Assembly: GCA_013115145.1 (NCBI GenBank)
Contig: JAAPAO010000314.1
Span: forward strand, 1 to 40,375
DNA from: Perkinsus chesapeaki
Lineage: Eukaryota; Perkinsozoa; Perkinsida; Perkinsidae
Direction: 5' to 3'
DNA length: 40,375 bases
In this document: piece after piece, positions 621-39,505 of the stretch
Position numbering within the stretch: position 1 is the first letter of the stretch
Layout: each line of letters opens with the position of its first letter
Made by a program: the position numbers and the translations under genes
The notes under the pieces: generated by a model
Database searches by the model: none
Seen by the model: the letters and a program-made list of their open reading frames with translations, nothing else
Told to the model about the DNA's origin: nothing

Positions 621-1312
621 TACAGTAGACGATAAAAAGAGAGAAGTAAAGCTAAAAAGACTAAAGCTCCCAGCTCTAAATCAAGATTAATTCTAAGTAA
701 GGCAATGGAATGTGGCATTTCCTAAGCGATGCATCCAAGCTAAGCCGAAACGGTACGCGTTACGGAGTCCGTTCCGCCAAAAACCGTGAAACGCCCCGGC
801 TTGGCACCCGTGTCACCACTTAAGTGTGCCTGAAGATGTCTCTAGGGTATCATCCATTCGGTAAAGGGCTTGCGTTGTTCGCCAGAGTCGGCCTAGCATA
901 TAACTACACCTTTTACCCCCACCGCAGCCTTTTTCGACGCGATATTGTATGTGCATAATCCTTCCAAGCGTGGGCCGCTTTCGTTGAACCATTCGGACGG
1001 GATTCGTTCTACCTCCCAAGAAAGATGATTCAGTTCAGAAAGGCGCTAAATCCTTCCGATGATAGTCGAATGAATCCTCGGCTATCCCTCCGAATGCTTA
1101 TGTTCGATCAGTGGACACTGTGTACACCAACACAGGCACGTCAGATGTTTACGAAAGATTGCGCATCTGCTACGTTTTTCAAGCGGGCTGTCCTTGTACG
1201 GTTTGTTTGTTCTACTTCACAAACTCAAATCAGTATGTTATATCCAATAAGTGGAAATATTATAAATGGCAAAAGATAGTCACACCCACTAGTGGCCATC
1301 AGTGGCCCTAAA
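621..1312. other. Intergenic, no gene seen
   Basis: This lies between the start of the secreted-protein gene and the stop of the kinase gene, both on the minus strand. It should therefore hold the promoter and 5' UTR of the first and the 3' UTR of the second. Short ORFs exist on both strands (813-1019 minus, 1025-1279 plus) but have no domain, signal or supporting splice pattern. Confidence 0.5.
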
Positions 1313-4311
1313 CTATCGTGATCGGCTATTGGTGCCACCGCCATCAGCCAAGGCCAATCTCATTGAGGCTGCAGAGCTCTGTCGAGCAACTAGAGTAGGC
1401 GGGGGTGGCGGCGAACCACTCCTCTCCTGGGCGTTACCGTTATTCCTCTCGCCAGTACTGCCCGCCGCCGCCGCAGCTGAGGCCTTCAAGTCAAAATCGT
1501 CCACTTGAGCATAGACCAGATTCATGTCCTCCAAATAGACCTGCATCTGACGTGTCGAAGTATCGGAATACTGCTTGCAGACATCCTCGTATGTCTTCCA
1601 GAATGCATCATACTCCCGAGCTCTGTCTCTGAAGACTGCCAAAATCCGGGCAGATTTTGTCGTACCTGCGAGAAGCCTCGCGGCGTTCGCTCGCATGTCG
1701 GAGAGCTTCGCCACGGACTGGTCAACCCCTTGCCAGAATATGGACACTTTATGCAGAATCTCATCAACCCTCCGTAACTTCCGCATCGAATCGGCAATGA
1801 GCGCCGCGGTAGGATCAGTACCACTACTAGATTGCTGATGGGGGACAGCCAATTGTGTGCTGCCCTTGCTGCTGCCTTCGACTCTTCCCGCAGAGGACTT
1901 CCTCATTTCCGGCTCTTCGCTCTCCGACTTCTTCCCTCCTTTCACCGAGCCCGCCGAGACGTCTGTCGGCGAGTTGCTATCCTTCTCCGAGACCTCTCTA
2001 TATCGCCCAGAACTGTCCCCTCCGTTATTTCGGGAATAGTCCCCAACATAGCCGGCCGCCAGGAAGGGTAAATCTAGCAGCTCAGCCTGGTCGGGGTCGA
2101 TCGAATCACCGTCTTCAGCCCGAGAAATGACCTTCTCCTCAGATGGCAGGTTCCTCAGCCTATCCAGCAGGGAGTCCAATCGTTTATTCGCTCGCTTAGT
2201 CCGCCGACTCGCGGTCCTCCGATTCGACGCATCGCCAGGGGTGCTAGCTCCCGAGCTCGAATCAACAAAGGATATCCTTGGACCGATATCGCCCAACCTT
2301 TCTGACATCTTCACGTCCGATTCTATCACCTCCTTAGCGTCCATGATAGCCTTCGCTGTAATCTCCCTCTGCTGTGCCGGTGGAATGCCAACTGCTGTTG
2401 TCGGCAGCCCCACGATAATCTTTTGAACTTTCCCCTCGAACTCCACGTAGTGAGAGTGAAGCTCCTCCGAGCTGACCGCCATGCCTTGTAGCTTAGCCTT
2501 CACCGAATCCAGGCCCGCCATAGCCTCTTCGGGCAGCCCTTCCTCCGCGAACAGAACCATATCAGAGATGTCTTTCCGGACCACCTCAGCGATGTCTCCG
2601 CATCGACTTAGCATGACGGTGGTCTGATTCTGAAGTTCACGCGCCTCAAAAATCATGGCCTGAACGAGCTGGGCAACCACCGGATGCTGACGGAAGTGTA
2701 TGTAGATTTGCTGGAATATCTTCAGTATGTTCAACTGGGCTGTACAGAGCTCATCCAGTCGGAAATCTTGTGCGGCCTTCTTTCCCAGATTCGCCGCTAT
2801 ATTCGGCACTATGACCTGGTTCGCTATGTCCGACACCGGCGACCGAGACCCGCTCCGACTTTGCTGAACCGCGACAAGTCGATGCTGCTGATCCTCTCGT
2901 ACAGAGGTTCGAAATCTGTGAGCCTGTTGGACATCTCCAGAAGCCATCGGCAACCCTCTAGAGTCCAAATGTTCAACCTGTACACCCTCCATAGGAGAGT
3001 AGTCATCATCCTCGTCATCGTCTATTGTCATTGGAGAGTCCTCCCCCGGCTCATGGAAGCTCGAGAGGGGGCTGGGGGCCTCGGCAATGCTAGTGGGCTT
3101 CAACACCTGTGAGACAGTAGTGGTCGATGTCATCGGTTGATAGTCGATTGCTCGTGCAGTAAGCGTCGAGTAGAGTTCGGTGAGCTGCGGGACTCGGCGT
3201 TCTGGTACCCAGATCTGCTGGAGGGCCTGGGCGGGCGGGAAATTTTTGAGCCAAGGATGGCTGAGGGCATCCTCAAGTGTGATGCGATCGTTAGGGTTCA
3301 CCACTATCAGCCTGGAGACCAGATCCTTCGCCTCGGCGCTGACATGGTCCATCTTGCGGAACTTAAACTGCCCCACGCGGATCTGATCGTTCATGTGTTG
3401 GCCGGTGAAGGGATACCGCTTTCCTGAAAAATACGATCACAAAAGCACGCCTCTCTACCGGCAACAATCTACCGATTCTAGACCAGACAGAGCCCCTCCC
3501 CCCTACTACCTAGCATAACGTACAGCAGCACTCCTAAGCTCCAATTGTCGGCTCTTCCGTCATATCCAACCTTATCCTCTTGAGCTTTGATGACTTCTGG
3601 CGCCCAGTACTGCGGAGTGCCAACCCACGTCATCGCCAGACTAGAGGCATTCTGCACCGCTTTCGACAGTCCAAAGTCCGCTAGCTTCACAACTGGATAC
3701 ACCGGCATGTCCCCAGGGACCGCCTCATAGCCTTGAGGACACTCCTTGGTCATGCTCGATACCAATATATTCTCTGGTTTGAGGTCCCTGTGGATAACAC
3801 CATTAACGTGGAGGTAGAGTAAGGCATCGACCACTTGGCAAAAGACAAAGCGTATAACGTTCTCATTGCTGAAGTTACTGTCATCTACGACATAGTCGAA
3901 CAGCTCTCCTCCGCCAATATACTCCATAACGATAAACACGGCAGCCTGGGTCTCCACGACATCATATAGAGCCACGATGTTCCGGTGCTTAAGTCGGGAC
4001 AGGATTCCTATCTCTTTGTGAAGGGCCTGTATCTCCCCCTCGAAGTCGCCGGATAGCCTTGCTCGTTGAACAAACAGACACTTCACTGCGAAAATTGCAC
4101 CATCGCTTTGCCTTTGGCATTTGAACACTCTAGCTGTGGCACCAGCGCCGATTTCCCGACCTATCCGGTATCTTTTAGGGTCTCCTAGGGGACCAAACTC
4201 AGGGGTGATGCCCGGCGGAAGGGAGGCTGGGTCGATGTCCCAGCTGCTGTCCGCCTGGTGCGCTGACTGCTGCCTGCTCCTGGTGTTGTTGTCTGATTGT
4301 GTATCGGACAT
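1313..4311 (-). CDS. CAMK-like Ser/Thr protein kinase with long C-terminal regulatory region
   Basis: Protein kinase that transfers phosphate from ATP to Ser/Thr. Two exons, 3510-4311 and 1313-3423, are separated by an 86-nt GT..AG intron and give 970 aa. The kinase domain spans about residues 48-320: glycine-rich loop GAGATA (55-60), FAVK lysine 77, helix-C Glu about 100, HRDLKPEN with Asp176, DFG (212-214) and APE (237-239). The intron falls just after VMLG, and splicing restores GKRYPFTGQ. The catalytic motifs are complete, so it should be active. The CAMK-style YSxPEVI-like and HPWL motifs (the latter ends the domain) suggest a CAMK or CHK2-like kinase, but no EF hands or FHA domain are visible. 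The remaining 650 aa are charged and Ser-rich with predicted helical stretches, and are probably regulatory. An unusual Asn follows Asp in RADNWSLG, where Leu, Ile, Val or Met is usual. The stop is at 1313-1315. Confidence 0.9.
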
Positions 4312-4432
4312 AGTGACAACGGGAAATGCAAGCTACTTGGATGATGATTAAATGAACTTGGACGCAAGGCTGACTAGGATAATAGGGTGGGAGGCACAGA
4401 AACAGTGCAGTCAACATCAAATTCATAAATGG

Positions 4433-5002
4433 CTACCAAAGAATTCTGGGCCTCATTGGGAACACTACCGCCGTCCGCGACGGAGAGGGAGCTCGGATCG
4501 CCCCTATCTTTGACCCACCACCGCTCTTTCCTTCGAAATTGATCCTCCTAGCGAGCTGTTCGTTCGGCAAGTGTTGTTGTGTCATGTGTAGGTCAGGGCC
4601 TGCCACTGCCCCTTCACAGGTCGTACAGAGGCCGGTGGCATCCCGAGGGTCGAGGCCCATACACACCCAACACGCGGGGGTCTCGGCTTTGGTACCAGTA
4701 CTAGTGGGAGGCGAGGAATCCTGCAGGTCAGTTGAGGCAATCACTGCGTTCTCACAAGGAGGGCAAATCCCTGATGATGATGAGCTAGCTGGCAAGCTAC
4801 CGCAACAAATAAGGCAGGTCGCCGTGGATTGTGTCCGAGACCTGGGGAGGAAATGACAGCGGAGAGCAGCGGGTGGGACCTCACTGGTGTTGATTTGGAA
4901 AGGGAGCTGGCGGAGACCAGTGGGACATGTTAAAGATCTGGAGAAGGGGGACAGCAGTGAAGACTGGCGAACGCAAGGCAAGAGGGACAATAGTCGGTAC
5001 AT
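4433..5002 (-). CDS. Probable mitochondrial protein with two double-CxxC motifs
   Basis: Family not recognised. I chose the ATG at 5002 (189 aa) rather than the longest frame (start 5203) because the N-terminus MYRLLSLLPCVRQSSLLSPF is Arg/Ser/Leu-rich, basic and lacks acids, as in a mitochondrial presequence. Two similar cysteine modules follow: C63-x2-C66...C80-x2-C83 and C111-x2-C114...C126-x2-C129. Each is a CxxC pair, a Gly/Ser/Asp linker of about 11-13 residues and a second CxxC, as in zinc ribbons or other metal-binding folds. The frame is uninterrupted, and the gene ends 121 nt before the kinase start on the same strand. Expression is not shown. Confidence 0.55.
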   Translation of the reverse strand: MYRLLSLLPCVRQSSLLSPFSRSLTCPTGLRQLPFQINTSEVPPAALRCHFLPRSRTQSTATCLICCGSLPASSSSSGICPPCENAVIASTDLQDSSPPTSTGTKAETPACWVCMGLDPRDATGLCTTCEGAVAGPDLHMTQQHLPNEQLARRINFEGKSGGGSKIGAIRAPSPSRTAVVFPMRPRILW

Positions 5003-5215
5003 GGAAGAGGTAGCATAAGCATGGTCAAGCCTCTGACGTCTGTACGGAGAAGGATGGTAGCTGAAGCTGATATGTATCTTACGAGGTTCAACCTTGGATA
5101 CCTTGTGTTGACTGCAGTATACTAGTCGGCCTCCTTTACGAAGAATAGCTGAGACACTCTCTTGGCCCGATAAGGATGGAAGGGTCAACTGAATCAGCAA
5201 CACCTAGTAGCATTC

Positions 5216-5679
5216 TTAAACAAACCCATCGGCAGGAAACAGCCGAAGTTCTGCAATGAAGAGCGCTCTTACCGAAGGGCTAGAAGCACAAGCCTTGGGC
5301 CTTAGCCGGCTTCCTCCCCCGTGGGAGGCCTTTGGTTTCACCAGTACGTGATAGTGATGATGGTGATGGAATACTCTGACCTGCCTATAGCCTCTCCGCC
5401 ATAAATCATCAGCATCAATAGCCGAACGGTTATCGTTCATGCTTGCCGCCTGAAAGGTATCCGGTTCGATTCACCTTTAGTCGTTTTTATTTTCCCTTTC
5501 ATAACTATTACCCCTCCTGCAGTCGTCATGGGCCGGTTACCCGAAGCCACAGGATGCTGTCGAGATGGCGGCACCGACGAACTCTTCAGTTCCTGTCCGT
5601 CTACACTGCGAAGGACCATGAGTGGGTGATTGGACCGCTGAAGATCACTAGACTCTTGCTGCCTTGCAAAATCTCTCAT
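5216..5679 (-). CDS. Possible small gene, structure unresolved
   Basis: Two minus-strand frames (5437-5679 and 5216-5440) look more protein-like than their antisense. The second carries a His-rich run (FHHHHHYH) and an acidic start (MNDNRSAIDADDLW). I could not join them with a splice that keeps phase: the only obvious pair of sites gives a 25-nt intron and a stop. It may be a gene with an exon I missed, a decayed gene, or chance. Confidence 0.2.
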
Positions 5680-6195
5680 TTCCTCAATTTTCCGAACTTT
5701 TTTGCAGACGTGTTCCTTCTTGTGGTATTAAGATATGCCTCTCTGAGGTCTATTGCTCGTCGCTAAGTCCATTAGGCTTCTAAGAAGCATCGCACGTTGA
5801 CTATTGGAGGATCTGACCTTACTGTGTATGAGAAGCCTGCCCCAACTCCTCGCGAGGGCGGCCGAACGCTCCAAAGGGGAGTGTTCAAAATTATTGATAG
5901 AAATCCTTTTTAGTGCAATTTGTAGCTCCAGAGTCCTTTGAATTCTCCATAAATCTCCTGTTCATCCGAGGGTCGCCGCTACGCCAACAGTGGCAGCCGT
6001 TCCTTCATTGTAGCATACCCTAGCTGGAGTGTCACGGGGCCCTCTCCGGCGGGCCTCAGAGCTCGGAAACATTTCACCAGGCAATAGTAGATTTGCAGAG
6101 CCTGGCTTTTAGGCGCAGAACTGCCTTCGAAGACTACCCGTGCTTTTTCGGTCGAATGGCGACTTACTCTGATCAGCCTTGCGTTCCACGTTATT
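5680..6195. other. Intergenic, probable divergent promoter region
   Basis: This separates the minus-strand block on the left from the plus-strand run that starts with Mago nashi, so it probably holds the upstream signals of both. No gene or recognisable element was seen. Confidence 0.45.
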
Positions 6196-6938
6196 ATGGA
6201 CCCATCTCAAGCAGGCGGCTCCTCCATGGCTGATACCGACTTTTACGTACGATATTATGTGGGCCACAAAGGTAATATAACCAAACCAGGGTCGGTCGCC
6301 GGGGAGGGGCAGAGGTTCCCTTAGGGAAATTTGGCCACGAGTTCCTGGAATTCGAGTTCCGTCCGGATGGCCGTCTCCGTTACGCTAACAACTCCAATTA
6401 CAAGCAGGATTCTATGATTCGAAAGGAGGCCTATGTCAGCCAGGCTGTCCTTAGTGTAGGTGGTATGGTAGGGTTTGTGGGACTGTTGTTGACTGTAGGA
6501 GCTCCGACGTATTGTTGATGATAGTAAGATAGCAAAGGAGGATGATAACCAATGGCCTGTACCTGATAAGGTATTGCTGAGAAGGAGGAGAGTAGCTGCG
6601 CTGGCGTTTTACGGTTTTTCTATCAGATTGGGCGTCAGGAATTAGAAGTGATTCTTGGAGGAGGTCCTGGAAAGGAAGCTGTAGGGAAGAGTCCCGCGGC
6701 AGACTCTATTATCATTTACTTTTAAGATACACTTGTCCTTCACTACGAGTAAAATCGGTTCCATGCACGACGTGGCGAATTCCAAGGACCCCGATGGACT
6801 CAAAACCTTCTACTATCTCGTGCAGGTAGCTGCTGCTCCTCTCCACTACTCGGTCTCCATTCAGACTGGTTCTCTCAGGATCTCAAATGCTTCGTGTTTT
6901 CCTTGATTGGACTCCACTTCAGAATCAAGCCCGTATAA
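6196..6938 (+). CDS. mago: Mago nashi, exon junction complex core subunit
   Basis: Mago nashi pairs with Y14 and clamps eIF4A3 on spliced mRNA in the exon junction complex, acting in the nucleus and cytoplasm. Six exons were joined: 6196-6271, 6325-6455, 6499-6570, 6627-6680, 6727-6825 and 6879-6938. The introns are 43-56 nt, all GT..AG and in phase, giving 163 aa. The match to the family runs end to end: [66 protein letters not shown] and [10 protein letters not shown]. Human MAGOH has 146 aa; the extra length is about 15 N-terminal residues plus about six between RQELEVILG and SFTTSK. An in-frame second ATG at 6226 (MADTDFYV) matches the usual family start better, so either start is possible. 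The gene has no long reading frame because it is so broken up. Confidence 0.95.
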
Positions 6939-7093: not shown

Positions 7094-8437
7094 ATGACAG
7101 CATCTGTTACCCGTGAGGGCCCGACAGGGAATCTTCTCACCAGCTGGGCAGCCCTTACGAATACAATTATCGATACAGGGCTACTCAGTATGGCCAGCGC
7201 CCTCAGCACATGTGGCTGGGTACTGGGAATGGCTATGTTCGCCTTTTTCGGTGGGCTGGCTCTGTTCTCTCTGGTGCTTCTCAATGCCATCTGCATGGTC
7301 CTGCCTACCACCCAGCAGTTCAGCTTCTTTACCGCCTGTGATGCCGCTGGGGTTCCTCATCTCAAATGGCTTATTGACTGCATTCTTATTCTCAACAATT
7401 TGGGCTTTAATGTTGTCTATTTGCAAGTATCAGCAACCCTTATAAGCACTCTCCTAGAGCACTGGAGCTCAGGCTTCCTTGCCTACAGTGGCATCGGTTA
7501 TAGATTCATTGTCCTCTCAGTGGTGCTCCTACTGCTATCACCGATCTGTCTTATGCGCCATATCACCGGAACAACTATTGCTAATGTTGCTGGGATAATT
7601 GGATTCACCTATGTGGTGTGTGCAGGAGTATCCTATGTTATTATGCACGCCGAAGCACAATCAACTCATTCCCTCTGGCCGTCCAGCGATGCCTTGAGGG
7701 TGCTGGGAGTGCTCCCGGTGTTTATATTCGCCTTTGCAGGCCATTTTAACGTGTTTCTTGTGGCCGAGGATCTCCGTGATAGAACCCTCAAGCGGCTTAA
7801 CTTGGTAGCAATCTCTACAATAGTCTTCACTACTGCATTGTTCCTGCCAGCCATGTGCGTCCCGTACGCTATTCTAAGCGGGGAAGTTAAGGACAACTTC
7901 TATGAAAACCTATCTATTGAGGACGTGGCCGTCCATATTGGTCAGGCCATTCTGCCATGTGCTATTCTATCATCTTATCCTTTGTTGCTTCTGCCGGCCC
8001 GGGCTTCCATGATCAACTTGATCGTCATGATATTACCGGATCACAAGGAGCGCAGATGGTTACATGTCTCTACTACTATTGGGTTCATGTTGGTCACTTT
8101 GGTGCTGGCTGCAACTATCAAGTCGTTGGGGAGCACTATGGCGCTTATTGGTCTATTGGGGGCAAACACTATGACATTTGTGGCTCCCTCTTATCTTTAT
8201 GTTAAGATCTTTGATCGCACTAGAGAGAGAATATCTACCAGGAAGGTATCATTATGTGCTTCTGGTGAAAGCAGCTGCGTCACCGAAGATACTTTAGAGG
8301 TCGGATTGGGGGCCAAGGAGCACAACTACACTTGGTGGGGAGCGGCTATTCTCTTCGTAGCAAGCTGCCTCCTTTACCCATTATGCTTGTCGGGTATTAT
8401 ATATACCCTTATTATCTCTAGTACTACTGCTGTATAA
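7094..8437 (+). CDS. Amino-acid/auxin permease family transporter
   Basis: Membrane transporter of the AAAP family (Aa_trans, the SLC32/36/38 type), which moves amino acids with H+ or Na+ across the plasma or vacuolar membrane. One uninterrupted 447-aa frame has about 11 hydrophobic segments. The first begins at about residue 18 in the family's typical form, with small residues and a conserved pattern after a short polar N-terminus (NTIIDTGLLSMASALSTCGW resembles the NxxxGxGxLxxPxAxxxxGW start). A polar loop at about 385-410 precedes the last two helices. Substrate cannot be told. It starts 155 nt after the Mago stop on the same strand. It has no introns although its neighbours have many. Confidence 0.88.
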   Translation: MTASVTREGPTGNLLTSWAALTNTIIDTGLLSMASALSTCGWVLGMAMFAFFGGLALFSLVLLNAICMVLPTTQQFSFFTACDAAGVPHLKWLIDCILILNNLGFNVVYLQVSATLISTLLEHWSSGFLAYSGIGYRFIVLSVVLLLLSPICLMRHITGTTIANVAGIIGFTYVVCAGVSYVIMHAEAQSTHSLWPSSDALRVLGVLPVFIFAFAGHFNVFLVAEDLRDRTLKRLNLVAISTIVFTTALFLPAMCVPYAILSGEVKDNFYENLSIEDVAVHIGQAILPCAILSSYPLLLLPARASMINLIVMILPDHKERRWLHVSTTIGFMLVTLVLAATIKSLGSTMALIGLLGANTMTFVAPSYLYVKIFDRTRERISTRKVSLCASGESSCVTEDTLEVGLGAKEHNYTWWGAAILFVASCLLYPLCLSGIIYTLIISSTTAV

Positions 8438-8744: not shown

Positions 8745-9918
8745 ATGGGGTTCTTCTCTAATATTTTCAAATGTGGCAGTAAAAAGGACAAGAAGGCCCC
8801 TGACACAGCGCCGAGCACTCCGACGCCCTCAACAGAGCCTCTAGTCTGTGGCACCTGCAGGTCCGTATTGCTGTGGCTCACTTATGGCGCAATATTGGCC
8901 CTGTTTAGTTACGCCCAGGCAGTGCCGACGTCTGCCCCTGCATTTATATGTTCAAGCTGCCATGCTGTGAATAGAATAGACCGTTCCCAGCTAGGGGGTA
9001 CTATGGTTCAGACAGCCTCCCAGGTAGTAGCTGCTTCTGGGGCGACTTGGGGATACCATCAGGGGCGGCTTTTGTTAGGCACCACCGACAGGGCCAGAAG
9101 TCCCACTGGTCCGACTATCATCGGCATTCTTTGTCCCGGCTAGTGAGGTAACCCAAATGCCACCTCCTAGTGATCCTGATGAGAAGCCTTGGGAGATACC
9201 TCGGTGCAGTGTATGCTTGGAGAACCCTGGAGACATGGTAATATGGGGGCAAAGGGGGATTGGACAACATTGTAATATATTACATATAGCTTTATATTAC
9301 TATTAAGCAACATAGTAATATATTATATATAGCTTTATATTACTATTAAGCAACATTATAATATATTATATATACCTTTATATTACTATTAAGCAACATA
9401 GTAATATATTAGATATAGCTTTATATTACTATTAAGCAACATTGTAATAAATTATATATACCTTTATATTACTATTAAGCAACATAGTAATATATTATAT
9501 AAAACCTTTTACTTCCGCAAGCGACCAAATGGATTTATACTAGATTCTGTGGTATAGTATTAGTGTATTATAATGATGAATGTCATTGCTATTCTTTCAT
9601 TGCCCATGACTATTTATTTAAGTCTGATGTTTTATAATTTAGGTTATCTTACCGTGTGGTCATGGTGGTATCTGCGAGCCGTGCGCCATGCATATAGCCT
9701 GCAATGATGCTGTTGGTGGGGACCACTGTCCAAAGTGCAGAGGACCGATTGAACATCTTGTGCGGATCACCAGGATACCCAATTCAAATGCTATCACGGC
9801 CGTTGAGGTATATATGAGATCTATGGCGGTGATAGTGGATACTGATCGAGTAGGTACCCTTACCGAAGCCAAGCCAAAAGAGGAAGTCACCCCCGAAGGT
9901 CCCACCGCTACCGGGTGA
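8745..9918 (+). CDS. LSD1-like zinc finger plus RING finger protein, possible E3 ligase
   Basis: Probable ubiquitin ligase or adaptor. Four exons: 8745-8864, 8919-9023, 9079-9237 and 9643-9918, about 219 aa. Near the N-terminus CGTCR...CSSCHAVN (C35, C38, C51, C54) resembles an LSD1-type zinc finger. After a Pro-rich linker a C3HC4 RING runs from C118-x2-C121 across the long intron to CGHGG, CEPC and CPKC (about residue 168). The large third intron (405 nt) splits the RING between GDM and VILPCGHGG and holds a minisatellite. The first splice is ambiguous: donors at 8865 (54-nt intron) or 8873 (36-nt intron) both keep the finger, and skipping the splice also keeps frame. The N-terminus MGFFSNIFKC, with Gly2 and Cys10, could be acylated (inference). 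The RING is secure; the LSD1 assignment is moderate. Confidence 0.8.
9267..9501. repeat. 43-bp AT-rich intronic minisatellite, five full units plus a partial one
   Basis: Five consecutive 43-nt units start at 9267, 9310, 9353, 9396 and 9439, and a partial sixth starts at 9482. Each opens with ACAT and ends with ATTACTATTAAGCA. Units 1, 3 and 5 begin ACATT and units 2, 4 and 6 begin ACATAG, hinting at an 86-bp higher-order period. The array lies wholly inside the intron that splits the RING domain. Confidence 0.93.
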
Positions 9919-12336: not shown

Positions 12337-12472
12337 TCGGCTCGAGGGCGTCGACTGCGTCGAGCCGATTCGACAGTCGGATTCCGAATCGAGGTGAACA
12401 AGCACCCGACTCGGGTGCTTCTCGGGTGACCCGAGATTCTTCGCTCGAAGCAGACAACTTGTCTGAGACAAG
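12337..12472. repeat. Palindrome chain 1 of the island
   Basis: TCGGCTCGA (12337-12345) faces TCGAGCCGA (12360-12368). At 12400-12420, 10-nt arms AAGCACCCGA/TCGGGTGCTT flank a single C. Directly adjacent at 12421-12435, CTCGGGT/ACCCGAG flank a single G. At 12452-12464 AGACAA/TTGTCT flank C, and at 12458-12472 CTTGTCT/AGACAAG flank G, sharing the middle arm with centres 7 nt apart. Confidence 0.93.
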
Positions 12473-12630
12473 CGAAGCGTACACTGGAGCTTTCTGGGCA
12501 TACACAGTTCAATTTCAAGGTATGCAAGAAACATTCGATGCGAGTCTCGTATAACGAGGAGATCTGAAATTTAGACTCTTATGCGACAAGCTAGCACCAA
12601 GCGCATGACAAGCGCGTGATCATGTGACCT

Positions 12631-12732
12631 CATAGCGGCTATGACATAGCCTACGAGTCATAGGGGCCCTATGATAGGGCCTATGACATAGGCATCATGT
12701 CGCATCATGGGTGTAAGTTACGCCGCGTAACT
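12631..12732. repeat. Palindrome chain 2 of the island
   Basis: Six odd palindromes with one-base centres: 12631-12643 (CATAGC/GCTATG), 12637-12651 (GGCTATG/CATAGCC), 12659-12673 (CATAGGG/CCCTATG), 12665-12681 (GGCCCTAT/ATAGGGCC), 12679-12693 (GCCTATG/CATAGGC) and 12716-12732 (AGTTACGC/GCGTAACT). The first two share an arm, and the next three form a continuous fold-back series. Confidence 0.95.
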
Positions 12733-12900
12733 CATACGAAATACGCCCACATTTTGTTGCATGTTCCCCGCGTTCAACGTGCGTTGGTACTGCGCGTTTA
12801 AGCCATAAACTTTGATCGTCTGGTACTAAACTGGTAGTGCTAATAGGAACTCCAGTATTGGTCAGTATGTACTGATAGTACGGTACCATTATTAATATTA

Positions 12901-13674
12901 TGGTCAACTTGACCACGTCAAGCCTTTGGTAATACTAAAGCGGTTAGAGCTTCAAAGAATAATTGTGAATACGGTAACCTTGTAACTTATCGTTTGATAA
13001 ACGATTAAATCCTTCCGCTACGGATCCACCGAACTCGGAGCCTCTGAGTCAGAGGTGCCGGACAGGATTGGCGCGTGGAAGTAAACATGTGAAAGAAACG
13101 AAATAGGTGAACTCGCGTCGTCCGCGTGGCCGACCCAAGCAGTGAGCTCAGTACGAGGGCACATACTTAGGAGATAGCCTACTTGGACTTTACTAAGGAA
13201 ATTCCTTAGCCGCGCGCTACCCGCAATGAAAAAAACACAAGCTCATCCCCCCGAAAGTATCTAACCTGCAGTGCGTGTGTGACCTTAGGATACGGCATAG
13301 CGTGATCGATACGCGTGAGTTAGAATCTTGGCACACAATCTGTGTACGCGCGCACACGCGCCAGCTCCATGTGACGCGCGACCCGCTGATGGGAGTTACT
13401 GTACGTCGACGCGCGCCTTCGCTCCCTCAATTTAACTCCTGATCACTAACGTGATTTCGATAATATCGTATAATACGATTCTTATTCAGTGAATACTATA
13501 ATAGTAATGCTATCCACAATTATGCTTGGAACAATTGTGAATAGACGATGTTTAACTGCTATGGCTTGATTTGAGCTGCTTAGAGTAGTGACTCAGTTAC
13601 TGTCAGTAACTTACTGAGGATATAGTGGCATGGGTTTGCGGGTGCGTGAGCACCGTACGCAGCGTAGTACGCTG
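12901..13674. repeat. Scattered odd palindromes of the island
   Basis: Perfect arms around one base: 12901-12915 (TGGTCAA), 13041-13055 (CCTCTGA), 13193-13209 (CTAAGGAA), 13458-13468 (CGATA), 13465-13479 (ATCGTAT), 13483-13495 (TATTCA), 13494-13506 (TACTAT), 13596-13610 (GTTACTG) and 13660-13674 (CAGCGTA). Several overlap or abut. Outer arms extend some of them with small bulges, for example around 13593-13618. Confidence 0.92.
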
Positions 13675-13715
13675 AGCGTACATATAGGATGATCCCATTA
13701 GGATTACTAGTAATT

Positions 13716-13760
13716 CTGATTTTCCCCGTACATCAAGGCTTGATGTACGGGGAAAATCAG
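13716..13760. repeat. 45-nt odd palindrome with 22-nt perfect arms
   Basis: The left arm starts CTGATTTTCCCCGTAC and ends CATCAAG. A single G at 13738 is the centre, and the right arm is its exact reverse complement. It could form a 22-bp stem in RNA or a cruciform in DNA. Confidence 0.97.
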
Positions 13761-13985
13761 ACTTGATGATCAGGTACATACAAATTGTTATTTCGGTGAA
13801 AATGCTCACGAATTGGTTTAACTTTCAAGACAAATCCTCCTGTAACACCACAAGGTTGCATGGTTTATAGTCCCATCTCCACGTCATTAGCCTGTAGATC
13901 TTCCTCAGGCCATCTGAAAGAACATAATCTAATACAAAGAATAACATTCTGACAGAGAATGATCTGAGGTTCAAATATCGTATTC

Positions 13986-14020
13986 CAACTGTAATACAGA
14001 GAGTCTCTGTATTACAGTTG
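13986..14020. repeat. 35-nt odd palindrome with 17-nt perfect arms
   Basis: CAACTGTAATACAGAGA lies on each side (inverted) of a single G at 14003. Imperfect complementarity continues outward (AAATATCGTATTC against GAAATATGATATTT), so the whole fold spans about 13972-14034. It lies 40 nt past the stop of the minus-strand membrane-protein gene, so it may sit in its 3' UTR. Confidence 0.96.
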
Positions 14021-14059
14021 AAATATGATATTTGTGACAGTCGCATTGTGGCTGGATTC

Positions 14060-14544
14060 TCACCTTGCCTCCTTTATCTTGCGTGTCTCTAGCAAGGCCA
14101 TCCTAATTTTCACTGTCAGCCACAATTGAAGTAGCGAGGCCCCAAACGCGAGTGCGCTTAAGACCGAAACTACTATCAAAAGAGCCTCGGGATAGTCCTT
14201 GCCGGAGACCAAAGGCACACCAGTGCCACCGCTTGAAGCCGCCGCGCCACTGTCGGGAGGAGCGGAAGTAGTTGTGAGCCTGAGGAAAAGCACCAAAGGA
14301 GTTAGCCGGTACCGTACCCGAAGCGTGGAGCTAGTTTGGCTCACCTTCGATCCTCAAGCATAGGAGAGTGCTCATCTTCTTTCTCCGTTTCCAGTGCATC
14401 GTAAAACTCTTCCATCGAATGGGAGATGTCCCCAACCATTGAAAAGGCCGCCGTGGTCGCCGGCTCGAAAATATCGATGGAGTTGAAGTCAAATGCTCCA
14501 GATGGAATAGAAGCGAGGAGAACGAAGAATCCGAAGATGAACAT
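14060..14544 (-). CDS. Small single-pass membrane protein with signal peptide
   Basis: Family not recognised. Two exons, 14345-14544 and 14060-14279, with a 65-nt GT..AG intron in phase, give 139 aa. The ATG at 14544 begins directly with a signal peptide (MFIFGFFVLLASIPSGA), which is why it is preferred over the upstream in-frame ATG. An acidic ectodomain (about 18-65) and a Ser/Gly/Pro-rich stretch (about 68-85) follow. A transmembrane helix (about 95-118, LLIVVSVLSALAFGASLLQLWL) leads to a short basic tail ending KIKEAR, consistent with a type I membrane protein. It is the only gene found within the palindrome island, and the only minus-strand gene between 6 and 35 kb. Confidence 0.6.
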
Positions 14545-14898
14545 GTTCCAGTTATTAACTGAATAATGTTTCCCTGCACCAGCCGCACTGCTTAATAAGC
14601 AGCTTAAGTTACGCTCCAGAATGGCGGTCGAAGGACGCCATGATGATTCCTTATGATGTGCACATTTCATGCATTCTGAGAAATCGGAAGGGCCCTAGAG
14701 TAGCGCGCTCGATTTCCACTGTGAAATCTCACCGAATACGGCATCACGGGAGGGAACCACAAACCTAACTCGAAGCCTGGAAGCCGGGATCTCTGGGTAC
14801 CCCAGACTGGGTTCACGAGCTAACTCCATAATAATCCCGTGCACCCGAGGGTGGCCAAGTTGTGTGTTTCCTATGTCAGTCTATTGTTCCATTCTTGA

Positions 14899-14919
14899 CC
14901 TCAAAGTTTGAGGCTCAAA
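14899..14919. repeat. Overlapping odd palindrome pair
   Basis: CCTCAAA/TTTGAGG around G14906 and TTTGAG/CTCAAA around G14913 share an arm; the centres are 7 nt apart. Confidence 0.93.
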
Positions 14920-15044
14920 CGGAGCAAGTGATGCAGCTTCAGTTGCGAAATATTGTTCAAGGTCTTTGGTAATCGCCGTATCCAAGAGATTTGTTAAAAA
15001 AATTGTCCCTCAAAAACCACTCGATATTTGTCTCGACCTGGCTC

Positions 15045-15067
15045 GGCCGTACGGTACGGCCCGTACC
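15045..15067. repeat. Overlapping odd palindrome pair
   Basis: GGCCGTAC/GTACGGCC around G15053 and GGTACGG/CCGTACC around C15060 share an arm; the centres are 7 nt apart. Confidence 0.95.
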
Positions 15068-15428
15068 ATGTGCCTAGTTGTACACTGATCATAACTCAGT
15101 AATTAATTGGGCGAAAGTACTTTCCCAGGGCAAAAGTGCGCATTTTCGGGAAAATGCGGAAACACTGAGTATTGAAGAGTTAACCAAAGCTCAGTAGATT
15201 GCTAGCGGGAATTCCCCAAACCCAAAACTCGATAAAGTATATGACAGTCACTTTGCTTACACGGCGAGCGCAACCTGTGCCCTGGAAATCGGATTAATGC
15301 CCTGTGAAAAAGGATTTACCCGTAATTTGCACGCATCCCCGCCTTGCACGCATGGGTTGTGTCGCTAGTCTACTTTGTGTCGGGCTGTGCAATTAATCTT
15401 GCCAGTGCGCAATCCCTTCTTGCGCGAC

Positions 15429-15450
15429 ACTTCAGTGAAGTGACTTCACT
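15429..15450. repeat. Overlapping odd palindrome pair
   Basis: ACTTCA/TGAAGT around G15435 and AGTGAAGT/ACTTCACT around G15442 share an arm; the centres are again 7 nt apart. Smaller ones follow at 15532-15542 (TGTCA/TGACA, nested in GCAGGC/GCCTGC) and 15565-15575 (CTGGT/ACCAG). Confidence 0.94.
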
Positions 15451-16194
15451 ACCGCTACAGTCCTTTGCCCTTCCGAAAACCAGAAATTTTCCAGGGTTGC
15501 CAGGCATTTCCATGGGAATTTGATGGCAGGCTGTCAATGACACCGCCTGCTTATCCCATCGGCTCTGGTCACCAGTGATGACTCACCACCGAGCGCATAT
15601 AATTGTGAAAGGTTCTCTCCTGTTCCCTGATGTCTTTTTCGTGGAAATGGGGGACTTGCAGGGAATCATCCCCCGGGGAATGGAAAATTTACGGGCCAAC
15701 GTGAAGTCCGCCGAGCTTGGCCCTCGAAGCGAAGCGTTAATACGGCTCTTATAAGAGGATCAATTCTTCAGAGGCTGTTGAACGACCTTCCTGTGTCACT
15801 TCTTAAAAGAGATTCGGTGGCAGTTGAACATGGCTTACGAAGACTTTTCGTTGGAAAGAGGCTTGAATACACCCTTGAATTGACAGTAGTGATGGTTCTA
15901 CTGTAATGCCTCTCGTGTGAGGAACATGGCTGAAATCTACCCTGGTACATTGGAAGGGGAAGCGATGTTGTGTTGTTGTGGCAATTAGTCTTTGTTGGGT
16001 AACATTCAATAACTTCATAAGATAAAATGAAATTTGTTCCTCGAGTTTCTACCACAGAGATACGAGATGAAAAGTTTGATGTAGAATGTAACATCCGACA
16101 TCACCTGTAACTTCATGGATGTTACTGAAAAGGGGAGCATCAATTACATTCCAGTTGACCGTGTTTAGCGGCAGTCCTCTTGTCTTCACAGTTA

Positions 16195-27752: not shown

Positions 27753-29881
27753 ATGAACGCACAAGATACACCCGAAGGTCTGGAGCGATTACTATTACCA
27801 TCCGCTGGAGAGCAGAGCTGCTCCAGTCCTCCCCTAACCTCAGCCCAGCGTGCTAAGAGGAGATGGATGCTCATACTCTGCCAGACTGCCTACTTTGTTA
27901 CCATTACACTACTCTATCAGATGGCACCATTCTTTCCGGTCTATGCTAAGAAGGAGTTGGGTAAAAACTCTTACCCCTTCATTCGTTGAACCCATTGGTC
28001 TCGGCAGGTCTATCTCACGCTATCATTGGTCTTGTATTTGCGGGCCTACCGCTGGCATCCTGCATAATGGCGCCTATATCGGGATATCTTTTGCAGTCGA
28101 TAGGTCACTTTGCAGTTCTATCCGCAGGTGGCGTCTTTGTCGCTATCGGTACCAGCGGTTTTGGATTCTCGCACACTCTAGTGTAGGCCAACATTAATGA
28201 GCATTCTTGGTTAAATGTTGTTGCTTCCAGCGGATTCCTGACATTTCGAGCAATCCAAGGCGTTGGTGCTGCATGCAGTTACTCTGCCATATCGGCTATA
28301 ATGGCCAGGTGAGGATGAAGGGGTAAGTCGGAGGATACTCTAACTTCGATTATTAGGCTCTTCCCGGGGGACATAGAGAAGATCTTTGCAGCACAGGAAT
28401 TGATAGCAAACGTTGGATTCGCCTTAGGACCAACGATAGGTACCTGACCGACGGTCAGTGACCGTTGGTATAGTGGCCACTTTCCACTCCCGACTATCAG
28501 GTGCCTGCCTCTTCCAGTGGGGTGGCTTCCGTATACCCTTTCTCACTTTAACTGCCATTCACTTGGTCGTCACGGTGAGTTCCGATACACCCTATCTCAT
28601 TGAACATCTCATCCAGGTAACCATGATGGTGACTTGGGTACCCCTACCCAAGGACAAGTCTCATGCAAGTAGCGAGCAATCGTATAGAAATCAGAAGAAG
28701 ATAGTGGGCATGCGAGAGGTAGGCTACGATAGTCAAGGCTCGTGCCCTGCTGGAGTTGTGGCGTTTCAACTGAGAATCAGAAGATATGAGAATATTGGCT
28801 TCATGCTTCGGTATTTCACGCCGGAATCCTTCAGAGAACCTTCTGCCACCTGGTCTCCATCAGGTGCTACGTATGCGGCATGTTGCGATGACTCTCCTAT
28901 CCACCGCCCTAGTATGTGCGTCATTCGGATTCATGGATCCAGTAAGTACCACAAACACTCCATACCACTCTTCCTTCAAATCACTCCTTTAGGTTCTGTC
29001 CGGTCATTTCCTGGATGTCCTTGGTCCGGTATCACCATCAGTAATGGGCCTTCTTTTTGCCTTCCCCACCGTCACCATGGCCATAGTCACTCCGTTCATC
29101 CCACAGTACCCACCTCCATCACTTTTGCTCTCTCAGTCACCTTTGCAGGACCACTGCCCTGCTCACCAAGCGCACGACGATTGCCTTTGGCTTGCTGGCT
29201 ATGGGGCTCTTCTTCGTAAAAGACCTCTCCATCCTAATAGGCGTTACTCTTCCGTTCGCTTGGTCAGGCCACCCTTGGACCCGCCATAAAGGTCTCGTCT
29301 AACCCCTGGGTGCAGCAGCTTATTGCTCTCGGCCTCGCCGGTATCGCTTCCAGTTGGGGTTGGGTGCCCTGTATGCCGTATATGATTGATGGGGTCAGTG
29401 GTAATTCCCTATACACGAGTACACTATTGTCTCTATTAGGTTCCCTCCAGGATGGGACATGGCGCTACCGATATGATATCTGCTCTCTTTAATGGAGGCG
29501 CCTCTTTTGGTGAAGCCCTCGGACCTCTCATCGGTGGAATACTGACCGAGTAAGCTGAGTTCTACTGCTCCTGAGACTCGTCACGTTTTTCTCAGTTCCA
29601 TTGGCTTCCCGAGTGCCTGCGTGGGCTTCTCCATTGTAGTCACCGTGTACGGTGTGCTATTCTGGATCTGCGCTCCCGACACCTCATCCGTCAAGCTTCT
29701 CCCTCTGTGCCAAGACGAGGCAGACAGCATTACTTCTAGACGAATGCCATCAGTAGCACCCCTTACAGAGTCCCCTCGTGGCCCGGCTGTAGTTCATTTC
29801 GTGCGGGATAAAAGTAGTGTAGCAGTTGGCGGCTTTTTATTAAGACGATTATTTTCAGGCCCAAGAATGTTGAAACTCTAA
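27753..29881 (+). CDS. MFS transporter, tandem copy C (mosaic of A and B)
   Basis: Third copy, 499 aa. Exons: 27753-27960, 28008-28182, 28231-28308, 28357-28439, 28501-28574, 28617-28718, 28864-28941, 28993-29105, 29149-29215, 29268-29393, 29440-29549 and 29596-29881. All introns are GT..AG and in phase. Exon 1 is almost identical to copy A at the DNA level (for example CAGACTGCCTACTTTGTTAC), whereas exons 2-11 and many introns follow copy B; the intron after exon 7 is identical to B's. The C-terminal tail is B-like through RDKSSVAVGGFLL but reads on 12 more residues because a stop present in B is absent. Function is as for copy A; the gene appears intact. Confidence 0.9.
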
Positions 29882-37141: not shown

Positions 37142-38320
37142 GCGAAGATAATTCTCATATCTGGTACCTAAAACGATTTTGTAGTTTACGAAATGGTAAG
37201 CAATCGTTAAATGGAGACCATGAAGACTAGCATCCTACTATTGTTAACAGCTGTGACCTGGTAGAGCTCAACTTCGTAGTAAGTGCCTGGGAATACCTCT
37301 GTCCTGAAGGAAGTAATGAGTCAAATCCCTTTACTTGATCCTCCATCTTACCCTGAGCTTTCCTCAACTTTTTGGGTGATAGATTCGGTCGCAGCACGCA
37401 CAACCATCTGGTTCAATAGCGGAAATATGCATTCCTCCCTGAAAAACGGAGACTAATCGGCATGAGAATGCTGGAGCGGAATGTGCGATCTTACTCCGAC
37501 GGATATGGGTCATCTATGTCCTCGAAGCAGTCAAGGGGGACGGGTTTTAGCTGACTGTTGGTTCCTGCTGGCGGGGTTTCCTCACTTCCCATACAGATCG
37601 CCAGAATTGGGCCGACAGTAAGTGCCACATACAACATGATGAGGATAACTATGAGCTGACAAGGTTACGATAACGTTTTCTACTGAGCTTTACTCCTAGA
37701 CTGTTGATGAACACACGAAGACAGGAAAGAACCATAGACTTTACTTTCGAGGAGCACAGCGGGAGATACCGTCTTAGCTATGCACTACACTAAACGTGAT
37801 AAACGCACCATTGCGCTGTCTCCTGTAACTGTCTACGAATGGCACAGTCTTCGAAATTCTTTTCTCATAGTTGTTTTTCTTGCTATAAGAATTGCGCTGG
37901 GATTCCGGTTGCGGGAGGCCGTTGATGACCCGATTTGGGTGTCTTTTCTCACCCTGTCCATAAGGAGAAAATCGAAAAACCGTCAGTGAGTCACCGACCA
38001 TTTTGTGACCGACTCGTACGTGTGCGCTTTCCTGATACTCTGGCTTATCAGGATGCTCTTGGAGCCTGCTACACCCGAGCAGCCATGTGTTCTCTTATGA
38101 GGATATTGGCAATCAATCTGAGGTACTTTCTGAGCTATTCCGTCATAAAAGAGGGCTGCCACGCGAGAGAGCTGCATATGTATGGAGCACAGGCATACAG
38201 TCGCACTGCGACTATCACAGTACGTTCGTTGCCACCATGCGTACCAAGCGAGGATGGACGAAGAATGCTCTGCTAAGTTGACAGTGTTAGCGAAGTGGAT
38301 GACAGTATGTCTCAGAGTCT

Positions 38321-38381: not shown

Positions 38382-38875
38382 GCTGCAGGACTACTGCAGG
38401 AAGTAAGGATACCGGCGGTGAGGCAAAGACCCGGCTGATATGATAAACCAAGCAAGTGGATTATGGGAGCATCCAACTCGTCATAGTAAAGGCAAGAGTT
38501 AATCTTGAAGAGTAACATCTCAACAGACTCATCTCAGCGCTTATTTGTATCGCTCTGGCATAAATGTTGCGGCTAATAATAGCAATAGCTCACGTCTACT
38601 CCATTACGAGCAACCACATTAGCCATGTTTTCGGTGTTCTTCTGTGGTTCAGAACCGAACTCTGTGACAGACAACAATTTGTGCGAGTCAATGTGCAGCA
38701 ATAGCTAGCTTCTCTAAGAAGCTATGCTTCAGATGCTTGCGGCATGGAGGTTGGGGCCATCGAATAGCTTTACTAAACTTATTTTGATTAGCCTAATTGA
38801 GTGCTCCCGCGTGCCAAGATAGAATCCTTCAAGTCCTATAGATAGAGCTTGTGGTGTCGTAACTTGGGAGCCGTT

Positions 38876-38924
38876 ATTGCGTTTCGGTAGTTGTACACAC
38901 TGTGTACCACTACCGAAACGCAAT
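38876..38924. repeat. 49-nt odd palindrome with 24-nt arms
   Basis: ATTGCGTTTCGGTAGT and GTACACA on the left mirror the right arm around C38900, with one mismatched pair (38892/38908). Outer AGCC/GGCT extend it across a 3-nt gap. A related hairpin, TAGCTTCT/AGAAGCTA around T38715, lies 160 nt upstream. Confidence 0.95.
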
Positions 38925-39505
38925 GGCTCTGTGTACTACACAGGCCCTTGTTTGTATAAGTTAACTGTGCTCGACATATTCGTCCACTTAAACCACCATT
39001 TCACATGACGTGGCGTTACAGTATGATTCAATTTTAGATAGTGTAGAAGCGTTCATCATGTTTGTCCCTTCCAAGATGCGCAGCTGAGGAAGATTCGTTG
39101 CTTTTCTGAGAGATTTGACCGCTATTGTAACACAAGTCAGCTGCTGATATATTTGACGACGCTAATGCGAGTCCTACTACACCTAGCCTGTGGCATATAC
39201 GAAGGTATATTACGCTAGCGTCACTAAGGCACGAATTCAATCAATGCCATTCAGTTATACCAACCCTGACTGGGGTCAAAGGGAGCAGAAATGGCCCGAC
39301 ATAAGCCGAGAGCCGGAATCCACAACACTATTCCATAGTACCGTGGAATAAGTAAACGAAATTTGTATAAGAAAGCGAGCTTGAGATTGCTCTAGCAAGG
39401 GCGATAGTTACGATCTCAAGTTGTTGGGGCATTATAAAGAGGCATAGGAGTAGTTAAAGACGTCATATGCCTTCCAAAGACTCATTTTACGTATTTACGG
39501 GAGGG

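Follow-up and report, generated by a model that had tools for sequence, protein, structure and literature searches.

The one-base-centred palindromes that crowd one part of a 40,375-nucleotide stretch of Perkinsus chesapeaki DNA (contig JAAPAO010000314.1, hereafter the window) are, judging from sequence, very probably excision footprints of DNA transposons of the hAT superfamily. Between positions 12400 and 15575 we counted 27 perfect inverted repeats with arms of at least 7 nt around a single central base (spacer 1), where about 0.2 are expected, and the whole window holds 32. The excess in this island is visible already at arms of 3 nt (113 versus 50 expected). At arms of at least 7 nt, spacers of 0, 2, 3, 4, 5, 6, 7 and 8 yielded 0, 1, 1, 0, 0, 0, 0 and 0 perfect inverted repeats in the island. 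These counts agree with an initial annotation of the window, which had noted at least 20 such palindromes between 12400 and 15450 and a one-base centre as the rule, with few even-length palindromes. Many of the 27 are not independent of one another, since two centres lying 7 nt apart belong to a single 22-bp figure.

The same annotation had taken the palindromes to form an island, and this confinement does not hold. In 20 other P. chesapeaki stretches, 10 chosen by similarity to the island and 10 untargeted, we found 115 inverted repeats at spacer 1 versus 8–18 for each of spacers 0 and 2–6. Across 248 kb the arm-length spectrum at spacer 1 spikes at arm 7, with 139 cases versus 12–18 for spacers 0 and 2–5. 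A genome-wide comparison of spacers had been proposed as a check on the observation, and in the sampled part of the genome the spacer-1 excess is indeed present. An assembly artefact limited to one contig is contradicted by the recurrence of both this excess and the 22-bp figure in other stretches.

Most of the spacer-1 excess in the 248 kb derives from this figure, Y[1-7] + revcomp(Y) + Y[2-8], in which Y can be any 8-mer; the units are largely arbitrary in sequence, consistent with the earlier remark that the arms differ and do not represent one repeat family. The tally, which skipped runs of N, took units of 8 with a single base lost on each side and gave 47 perfect figures in 248,354 bases, 34 with one mismatch, 34 with two and 77 with three, compared with 0, 0, 1 and 9, respectively, in one mononucleotide shuffle. 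With up to two mismatches allowed, the figure occurs in 29 of the 30 scanned sequences, which comprise the window, 10 island-similar stretches, 15 untargeted stretches and 4 transposase loci. As expected for hAT footprints, the target-site unit is quantised at 8 bp: no perfect figure was found in the 248 kb at unit lengths 7 or 9–12 with 0, 1 or 2 bases lost, while at unit length 6 perfect figures numbered 2 for a loss of one base and 5 for a loss of two. Unit-8 variants that lose two bases, or none, had zero perfect copies in the 248 kb, so that perfect unit-8 copies exist only with one lost base, which is the form predicted if the central base is complementary to the TSD base that adjoins the element.

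Because it includes the window, the island-similar stretches and the transposase loci, the 248-kb set overstates the average density of footprints. The 15 untargeted stretches, 10 from contig starts and 5 from interiors and all selected on contig number, contain 15 perfect figures in 99,878 bases of contig starts and 2 in 46,851 bases of interiors. They extrapolate to about 4,100 perfect 22-bp scars in the genome (pooled 95% Poisson range 2,389–6,566), or to about 1,500 from the interior stretches alone (range 183–5,458), numbers that are rough because contig starts are denser than interiors.

The 8-mers also carry a target preference. T at Y2 or A at Y7 occupies 113 of 230 positions versus a background of 26.5% (p=3.6e-13), and 40 of 94 in the 47 perfect figures alone (p=9e-4), both p values treating figures as independent. 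T3/A6 is mildly enriched as well (79/230, p=0.009) and T4/A5 lies under background (47/230). An asymmetry of C over G at Y1 and Y8, which had appeared in a hand count of the first rows, came to 40 versus 35 at Y1 and 43 versus 25 at Y8 in fuller data and was taken as noise. The 8-mers thus fit nTnnnnAn, the preferred target described for Hermes, a hAT element with 8-bp TSDs (PMC10368747; PMC2803484). This motif is not common to all hAT elements, the target reported for TcBuster being nnnTAnnn (PMC3499496).

Together, the unit of exactly 8 bp, the one base lost per side and the nTnnnnAn motif point to a hAT transposase. They bear directly on the idea that stalled forks or breaks provoke template switching or snap-back synthesis, which would copy any local sequence as a mirror and which we regard as very improbable here. 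Local mirror copies and filler do occur, and template switching has been proposed as the source of inverted copies elsewhere (PMC10766183), but it gives no reason for a fixed 8-bp unit, for the loss of one base per side or for the T2/A7 preference, and the sampled unit-length spectrum, empty of perfect copies at 7 and 9–12, and the motif (p ~4e-13) contradict it. The initial annotation had suggested snap-back repair; on our reading, a hairpin that is formed and opened and that leaves local mirror copies survives from that proposal, whereas an origin in random breaks of repair or replication is at odds with the 8-bp unit and with nTnnnnAn.

Other DNA transposon superfamilies whose TSDs are close to 8 bp (P, Merlin, Mutator-like, Dada) are also improbable sources of the footprints. 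Mutator TSDs are near 9 bp, and P and Merlin elements are not known to form flanking hairpins. Merlin has been reported from Alveolata (PMC8101967) and Dada from Perkinsus marinus (PMC3706591), which makes both worth considering, but the TSDs described for Dada are 6–7 bp (PMC3706591) versus the unit of 8 found here. It is for hAT elements that hairpins on the flanks, a centre formed by the complement base and nTnnnnAn have been described (PMC5873905, PMC10368747, PMC4763223, PMC2803484).

From the products themselves we infer the following order of events under hAT excision. An element would enter an 8-bp target Y, preferably nTnnnnAn, to give Y-element-Y. The transposase would then excise the element and seal each flank as a hairpin, whose tip would be the complement of the TSD base adjoining the element, giving the one-base centre. 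Opening of the hairpins away from the tip, commonly at a distance of at least 8 nt, would leave overhangs that each mirror their own flank. Because the left overhang would start with revcomp(Y) and the right one with Y, the two could anneal across the whole 8 bp, and fill-in and ligation would yield Y[1-7] + revcomp(Y) + Y[2-8]. The site would thereby lengthen by 14 bp and hold two palindromes, each with a one-base centre, spaced 7 bp apart. More rarely, joining without full annealing would leave one long palindrome, or a pair of palindromes with filler between them.

Products of the rarer kind are present. We examined 16 long one-base palindromes (arms of at least 9 nt, with centres of 22-mers at up to 3 mismatches excluded) for a partner TSD at up to 1 mismatch, and found it at the predicted place and orientation in 10, compared with 178 of 3200 random centres (5.6%). 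Two of the 10 partnered palindromes, both in stretch L022, represent one event, and 6 of the 16 had no TSD partner. Examples of such palindromes lie in stretches L019 (arm 25), L011 (arm 16) and L022 (arms 11 and 15), and un-annealed products of two hairpins exist. Filler-type products numbered 9 at unit 8, 6 at unit 6, 2 at unit 7 and 1 at unit 9 and are weak evidence as a class. Filler-free joins at unit 8 numbered 46 at gap 8 and 4 at gap 6. Short Ac-like footprints of 1–4 added nt did not stand out, as the counts at gaps 1 to 4 fall off across units 7, 8 and 9 in the manner of chance; the background could conceal about ten of them.

The window contains 19 figures at up to two mismatches, 16 of which lie within 12368–15589. 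Perfect footprints occur at 12451..12472 (Y=CAGACAAG), 12630..12651 (Y=TCATAGCC), 13596..13617 (Y=GTTACTGA) and 13660..13681 (Y=CAGCGTAC). Footprints with one mismatch occur at 12710..12731 (Y=GGCGTAAC), 12901..12922 (Y=TGGTCAAG), 13034..13055 (Y=CTCAGAGG) and 13465..13486 (Y=ATCGTATT), and those with two at 12368..12389 (Y=ATCCGACT), 15568..15589 (Y=GTCATCAC), 38199..38220 (Y=AGTCGCAG) and 38493..38514 (Y=CAAGATTA). At 12658..12693 two footprints are nested, a younger perfect one at 12659-12680 (Y=CATAGGGC) lying inside an older one (Y=TCATAGGC); reducing the younger to 8 bp in silico renders the older footprint perfect. An un-annealed footprint at 12403..12435 (Y=CACCCGAG) has Y[1-7] CACCCGA and Y[2-8] ACCCGAG flanking two mirror stretches, 11 nt on the left and 8 nt on the right (9 if one shared base is counted twice), and explains the palindromes at 12400-12420 and 12420-12436. 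At 38893..38943 (Y=GTACACAG) two mirror stretches of exactly 8 nt are separated by 21 nt of filler. The feature at 13715..13775 consists of a one-base palindrome with 23-nt arms (13715-13761) followed by CTTGATG and a candidate decayed right TSD, ATCAGGT versus the expected ATCAAGC; with its 2 mismatches this gave no TSD call in the automatic search for partners, which allowed up to 1, and by eye we read the feature as a probable single hairpin whose opening lay about 24 nt away from the tip. The 17-arm one-base palindrome at 13986..14020 was negative in the TSD partner test and is perhaps a one-sided product whose other TSD has been deleted, being otherwise unexplained.

If the figures are excision scars, relatives of the same sequence should retain a single 8-bp target. 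Among 114 figures queried, a non-self paralogue spans the site in 6, and a plain 8-bp site is seen cleanly at 3 of these and more weakly at 2; the comparison is with paralogues, not alleles, and the paralogues are not all independent, since L012, L017 and L018 look alike at these sites. The perfect footprint at 15428..15449 (Y=CACTTCAC) has a plain 8-bp site, exactly 14 bp shorter, in 6 of 7 paralogues. The two other clean cases are the footprint at 14792..14813 (2 mismatches, Y=TCTGGGGT), with a plain site in 3 of 4 aligned paralogues, and the perfect one at 14899..14920 (Y=CCTCAAAC), with a plain site in both aligned paralogues (~70% identity). A further paralogue of the latter (L009 2984) carries a footprint of its own, displaced by 1 nt (Y=ACCTCAAA, 1 mismatch). 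At the perfect footprint 15046..15067 (Y=GCCGTACC) the 8-bp site is found in 2 of 3 paralogues, weaker evidence because a gap is needed to align the left flank. The perfect footprint outside the island at 28444..28465 (Y=CTGACCGT) has a single paralogue, at window positions 25304-25452, with 8 letters (CTGACCAG) at the site, and is weak because the paralogue diverges directly after it. At the sixth, L011 2186, the spanning paralogue does not show the plain 8-bp site.

These comparisons weigh against the palindromes being a class of recognition sites, as the initial annotation had suggested. Functional palindromic binding sites would share arm sequence, but the arms are largely arbitrary and at three footprints the extra 14 bp are missing from paralogues. 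Errors in a draft assembly are conceivable, but the figure's spread through nearly all scanned sequences, with mutational decay, is not that of an artefact, and we consider either explanation extremely implausible.

Sequences related to hAT transposases are present in the genome. The hAT dimerisation domain (PF05699) gave 4 matches above the cut-off, all partial, and was found again in 3 of 7 translated frames; DUF4371 (PF14291) was matched partially at 2 places. These partial sequences may be kin of the responsible element. A related frame, C179, is open for 359 codons, so an intact intron-bearing hAT transposase gene may exist; its only protein neighbour was the same P. chesapeaki protein. 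PF04937 and PF02892 had zero matches, which is uninformative because all control genomes were equally without a match. No convincing intact TIR element with an 8-bp TSD was recovered from the 248 kb or from 5 stretches at 4 transposase loci; C779 and C721 were covered by the 248-kb search only. That search gave 6 rows at TSD 8, none convincing: 4 fall within one AT-rich tandem repeat of the window, one in L026 is an inverted repeat with a self-complementary "TSD", and one in L033 adjoins a palindrome. TIR brackets at the transposase loci were weak, uncontrolled candidates, 2 of them at TSD 8, both in L052. The L026 element belongs to a repeat family with inverted arms of ~130 bp, and we draw no tie between it and the footprints.

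That the sample has many footprints but no convincing donor would also fit a domesticated hAT-derived transposase running programmed excision, with footprints as by-products of genome maintenance and no mobile parasite involved; Kat1 is described as a domesticated hAT transposase that makes flanking hairpins (PMC4763223). We think this quite unlikely, as the footprints decay (34 figures each with one and two mismatches), at least one pair is nested and the footprint at 15428 is missing from 6 of 7 paralogues, all as for sporadic germ-line insertions. A broader scenario, which we offer as a speculative outside possibility, is hAT-derived excision, past or present, coupled to a repair that opens hairpins at the edge of the target or further out and nearly always joins them again by annealing of the 8-bp TSD mirror copies. 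Elements would leave far oftener than they stay, producing thousands of +14-bp scars and few or no donors, either in a "cut and vanish" burst or through programmed excision that resembles DNA elimination in ciliates.

Excision by mobile hAT elements remains our preferred reading. Excision footprints have usually been studied in laboratory excisions, the Candida work comprising 128 revertants (PMC5873905). The genome of this oyster parasite appears to hold a natural archive of many past transposon jumps, which would reveal the target motif of departed transposons and the repair of hairpin ends in an alveolate. The formula Y[1-7] + revcomp(Y) + Y[2-8] could serve as a detector of past hAT activity in any genome, even where no element remains. 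Annotators should bear in mind that such palindromes can be scars and not regulatory sites.

V(D)J P nucleotides are caused by hairpin opening, and the Ac TSD is 8 bp. Like the Perkinsus footprints, V(D)J P nucleotides are described as short palindromic insertions that inversely repeat germ-line sequence, but they are 1–3 bp long and involve no 8-bp TSD (PMC3528771). Amoebophrya-type introners, with 3–5 nt direct repeats and 8–20 nt inverted repeats at both intron ends (PMC7789003), were considered and rejected, the Perkinsus unit being 8 bp with one-base centres and nothing between. In mPing, as here, the TSD itself is reported to provide repair microhomology; that repair is precise (PMC4561436), whereas in Perkinsus the complementary TSD mirror copies would anneal and leave 14 extra bp. 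TcBuster, a hAT element of Buster type, shares the 8-bp TSD and hairpin-type footprints (PMC3499496), but the T4/A5 counts run against its target. The 8-bp TSD and nTnnnnAn are those of Hermes (PMC10368747; PMC2803484), and hAT chemistry is described as placing hairpins on the flanks (PMC4763223), as we propose here; unlike Hermes, no intact Hermes-like element was recovered from the Perkinsus stretches. The closest parallel in product is Ac/Ds, for which P-nucleotide palindromes centred on the complement of the transposon-adjacent base are reported from yeast, plants and Candida, with arms of up to 20 nt in yeast (PMC5873905). Those footprints were obtained in laboratory excisions, and the Candida ones add no more than 3 nt (PMC5873905), a type without excess in the Perkinsus sample, whereas the Perkinsus record is natural and, unlike Ac/Ds, is dominated by the complete 8-nt TSD mirror copy. 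The excision chemistry is already known from Ac/Ds; what is new is a record of it left naturally across a genome, in which the whole-TSD product predominates.

Within the island of one-base-centred palindromes at window positions 12400–15575 we counted 27 perfect inverted repeats that combine a single central base with arms of 7 nt or longer, against a chance expectation of ∼0.2; the remaining spacers between 0 and 8 gave 0–1 each. The initial annotation, which had claimed at least 20 such palindromes here and had taken the one-base centre to be a rule, is thus borne out on both counts. The excess of spacer 1 that it raised for the rest of the genome was also found in 20 further stretches (10 chosen by similarity to the island and 10 untargeted), with 115 repeats at spacer 1 compared with 8–18 at each of spacers 0 and 2–6. 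Because of this recurrence, and because the 22-bp figure described below is present in 29 of the 30 sequences scanned (≤2 mismatches), the palindrome excess is a property of the P. chesapeaki genome (assembly of 35.4 Mb in 884 contigs) as far as it was sampled.

Many palindromes are paired with their centres 7 nt apart, each pair making up a single figure of 22 bp, Y[1-7] + revcomp(Y) + Y[2-8], in which Y can be any 8-mer. We scanned 248,354 bases, comprising the window, 10 island-like stretches, 15 untargeted 10-kb stretches and 4 transposase loci, and obtained 47, 34, 34 and 77 figures with 0, 1, 2 and 3 mismatches, respectively; a single mononucleotide shuffle gave 0, 0, 1 and 9. The arm spectrum at spacer 1 peaks at exactly 7 (139 versus 12–18 in spacers 0 and 2–5), and of the 202 one-base palindromes whose arms reach 7 nt or more, 151 coincide with a centre of a figure with ≤3 mismatches. 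No perfect figure was found in these bases at unit lengths 7 and 9–12 with 0, 1 or 2 bases lost, and none with no base lost at ≤1 mismatch. Unit length 6, where few matches are needed, gave 2 perfect figures with one base lost and 5 with two lost. The figures lie mostly outside long open frames: frames of at least 150 codons make up 20.6% of bases and hold 3 of 81 figures (≤1 mismatch). The 15 untargeted stretches contain 17 perfect figures (contig starts, 15 in 99,878 bases; interiors, 2 in 46,851 bases), which extrapolates to about 4,100 perfect figures across 35.4 Mb (2,389–6,566 as the pooled Poisson range), or to about 1,500 (range 183–5,458) from the interior stretches alone.

When aligned with paralogues, diverged copies of the same sequence elsewhere in the genome, the putative footprint is a plain 8-bp site plus 14 bp, cleanly so at three window sites. 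A non-self paralogue spanning the site was available, within the sequence sampled, for 6 of the 114 figures queried. The plain 8-bp site is present in 6 of 7 copies of window 15428, in 3 of 4 copies of 14792 and in both copies of 14899. Weaker cases are window 15046 (2 of 3 copies, with a gap in the left-flank alignment) and 28444 (its single copy, with divergence starting just right of the site); at position 2186 of stretch L011 the plain site was not seen in the single paralogue copy. Another paralogue of window 14899, on stretch L009, carries its own figure with a one-base shift (Y=ACCTCAAA, one mismatch). At window 12658–12693 two figures are nested, and the older becomes perfect once the younger is reduced to 8 bp. 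A second, weaker nested candidate lies on stretch L031, where reducing a one-mismatch figure gives another one-mismatch figure. On the same stretch (contig C779, ∼1646–1769) a run of overlapping footprint-like figures adjoins a hAT domain match; this chain suggests repeated events at a single spot.

The transposase of the hAT element Hermes nicks one base inside the flank, as reportedly found by Zhou et al. (2004). With an 8-bp target-site duplication (TSD), opening of the left hairpin 8 nt or more from the tip would give Y[1-7]+revcomp(Y), and the right hairpin, opened likewise, would contribute revcomp(Y)+Y[2-8]. Complementarity between the resulting overhangs would span 8 bp, and their annealing would yield the 22-bp figure. 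That hAT transposases leave the flanking DNA with hairpins is stated in the available text of PMC4763223. Candidate un-annealed products occur at window 12403–12435, where a left stretch of 11 nt is joined to a right stretch of 8 nt, and on stretch L022 from 7776 onward (12 + 16 nt, with 8 nt between). Two others account for long arms: right 26 nt plus left 4 nt with one shared base on L019 (arm of 25), and right 17 nt plus left 8 nt with three shared bases on L011 (arm of 16). Ten of the 16 long one-base palindromes outside 22-mers, two of them being both halves of the single L022 event, have a TSD partner at the predicted place, versus 5.6% of random centres. The remaining 6, including window 13715 and 13986, have none at that place; read by eye, the palindrome at 13715 looks like a decayed hairpin product. 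A loose search for filler-type products gave 6, 2, 9 and 1 cases for units 6, 7, 8 and 9, respectively (shuffle, 0), and this class alone is not specific for unit 8. At window 38893–38943 a further pair of mirror stretches, each exactly 8 nt long, flanks 21 nt of filler.

The hAT dimerisation domain gave 4 matches above cut-off, on contigs C379, C83, C779 and C721, and DUF4371 gave 2, on C354 and C379; all are partial. The dimerisation domain was recovered again in 3 of 7 translated frames. A frame on C179, with 35% identity to part of the C83 locus and encoding P. chesapeaki FOL47_004561 (100% identity), is open for 359 codons, so a working intron-bearing transposase gene may exist. Neither the 248 kb nor five stretches from the four transposase loci yielded a convincing element bounded by terminal inverted repeats and an 8-bp TSD, which would fit either with repeats having dropped out of the draft assembly or with a true rarity of the elements. 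Stretch L026 (C160) holds at 430–892 a repeat family with inverted arms of ∼130 bp, 86% alike, and partial relatives on 11 other contigs, possibly a non-autonomous DNA transposon.

The window also contains an amino-acid transporter frame (7094–8437; 78% of its length aligns with a Perkinsus olseni protein at 80% identity), a frame matching PF20525 (DUF6740; 39506–40285, strand −, E 2e-70) and an AT-rich tandem repeat with even-centred palindromes (9271–9484). A 233-bp repeat at 13230–13462 shares 93% identity with C184:39063-39295 and has partial, less similar copies on C165 and C579. Pieces of a diverged multi-copy repeat at 14722–15488 recur at 64–80% identity on C610, C201, C297, C288, C11, C449 and C46, close to a contig end on C610, C288, C11 and C449. 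Among the matches listed in a search of the Perkinsus and hAT-footprint literature that covered only a minority of subscription papers, no title describes such a natural record; an earlier description may exist.

In Candida hAT footprints, according to the accessible part of PMC5873905, short additions are the rule. They dominate there, whereas the Perkinsus sample has no such excess at gaps 1–4 and gap 8 stands out instead. Unit-8 joined products number 42, 14, 7 and 2 at gaps 1, 2, 3 and 4 and 46 at gap 8, compared with 169, 53, 16 and 8 at gaps 1–4 for unit 7 and 10, 8, 0 and 0 for unit 9, a background that could conceal about ten true cases in a test to which deletion products are invisible. 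Either hairpin opening seldom falls short of the TSD edge, or the joining step has a strong preference for annealing of the full TSD.

A target motif shows in the 8-mers themselves. In the 115 figures with ≤2 mismatches, some of which overlap (as on L031) and are not fully independent, 113 of 230 positions carry T2 or A7, compared with a background of 26.5% (p=3.6e-13). There is a mild enrichment of T3/A6 (79/230, p=0.009) and a mild deficit of T4/A5 (47/230, p=0.04), T1/A8 is avoided (28/230, p=2e-7), and perfect figures alone (n=47) give T2/A7 at 40 of 94 positions (p=9e-4). We consider it very likely that the figures are hAT excision footprints; the main grounds for this confidence are the unit-length spectrum and the motif, and it is therefore unaffected by the weaker paralogue sites, the filler class and T3/A6. 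The nnnTAnnn target of the hAT element TcBuster, as given in the available portion of PMC3499496, does not fit the Perkinsus 8-mers. The preferred 8-bp target of Hermes, 5'-nTnnnnAn-3' in the portions available of PMC10368747 and PMC2803484, matches their T2/A7 enrichment.
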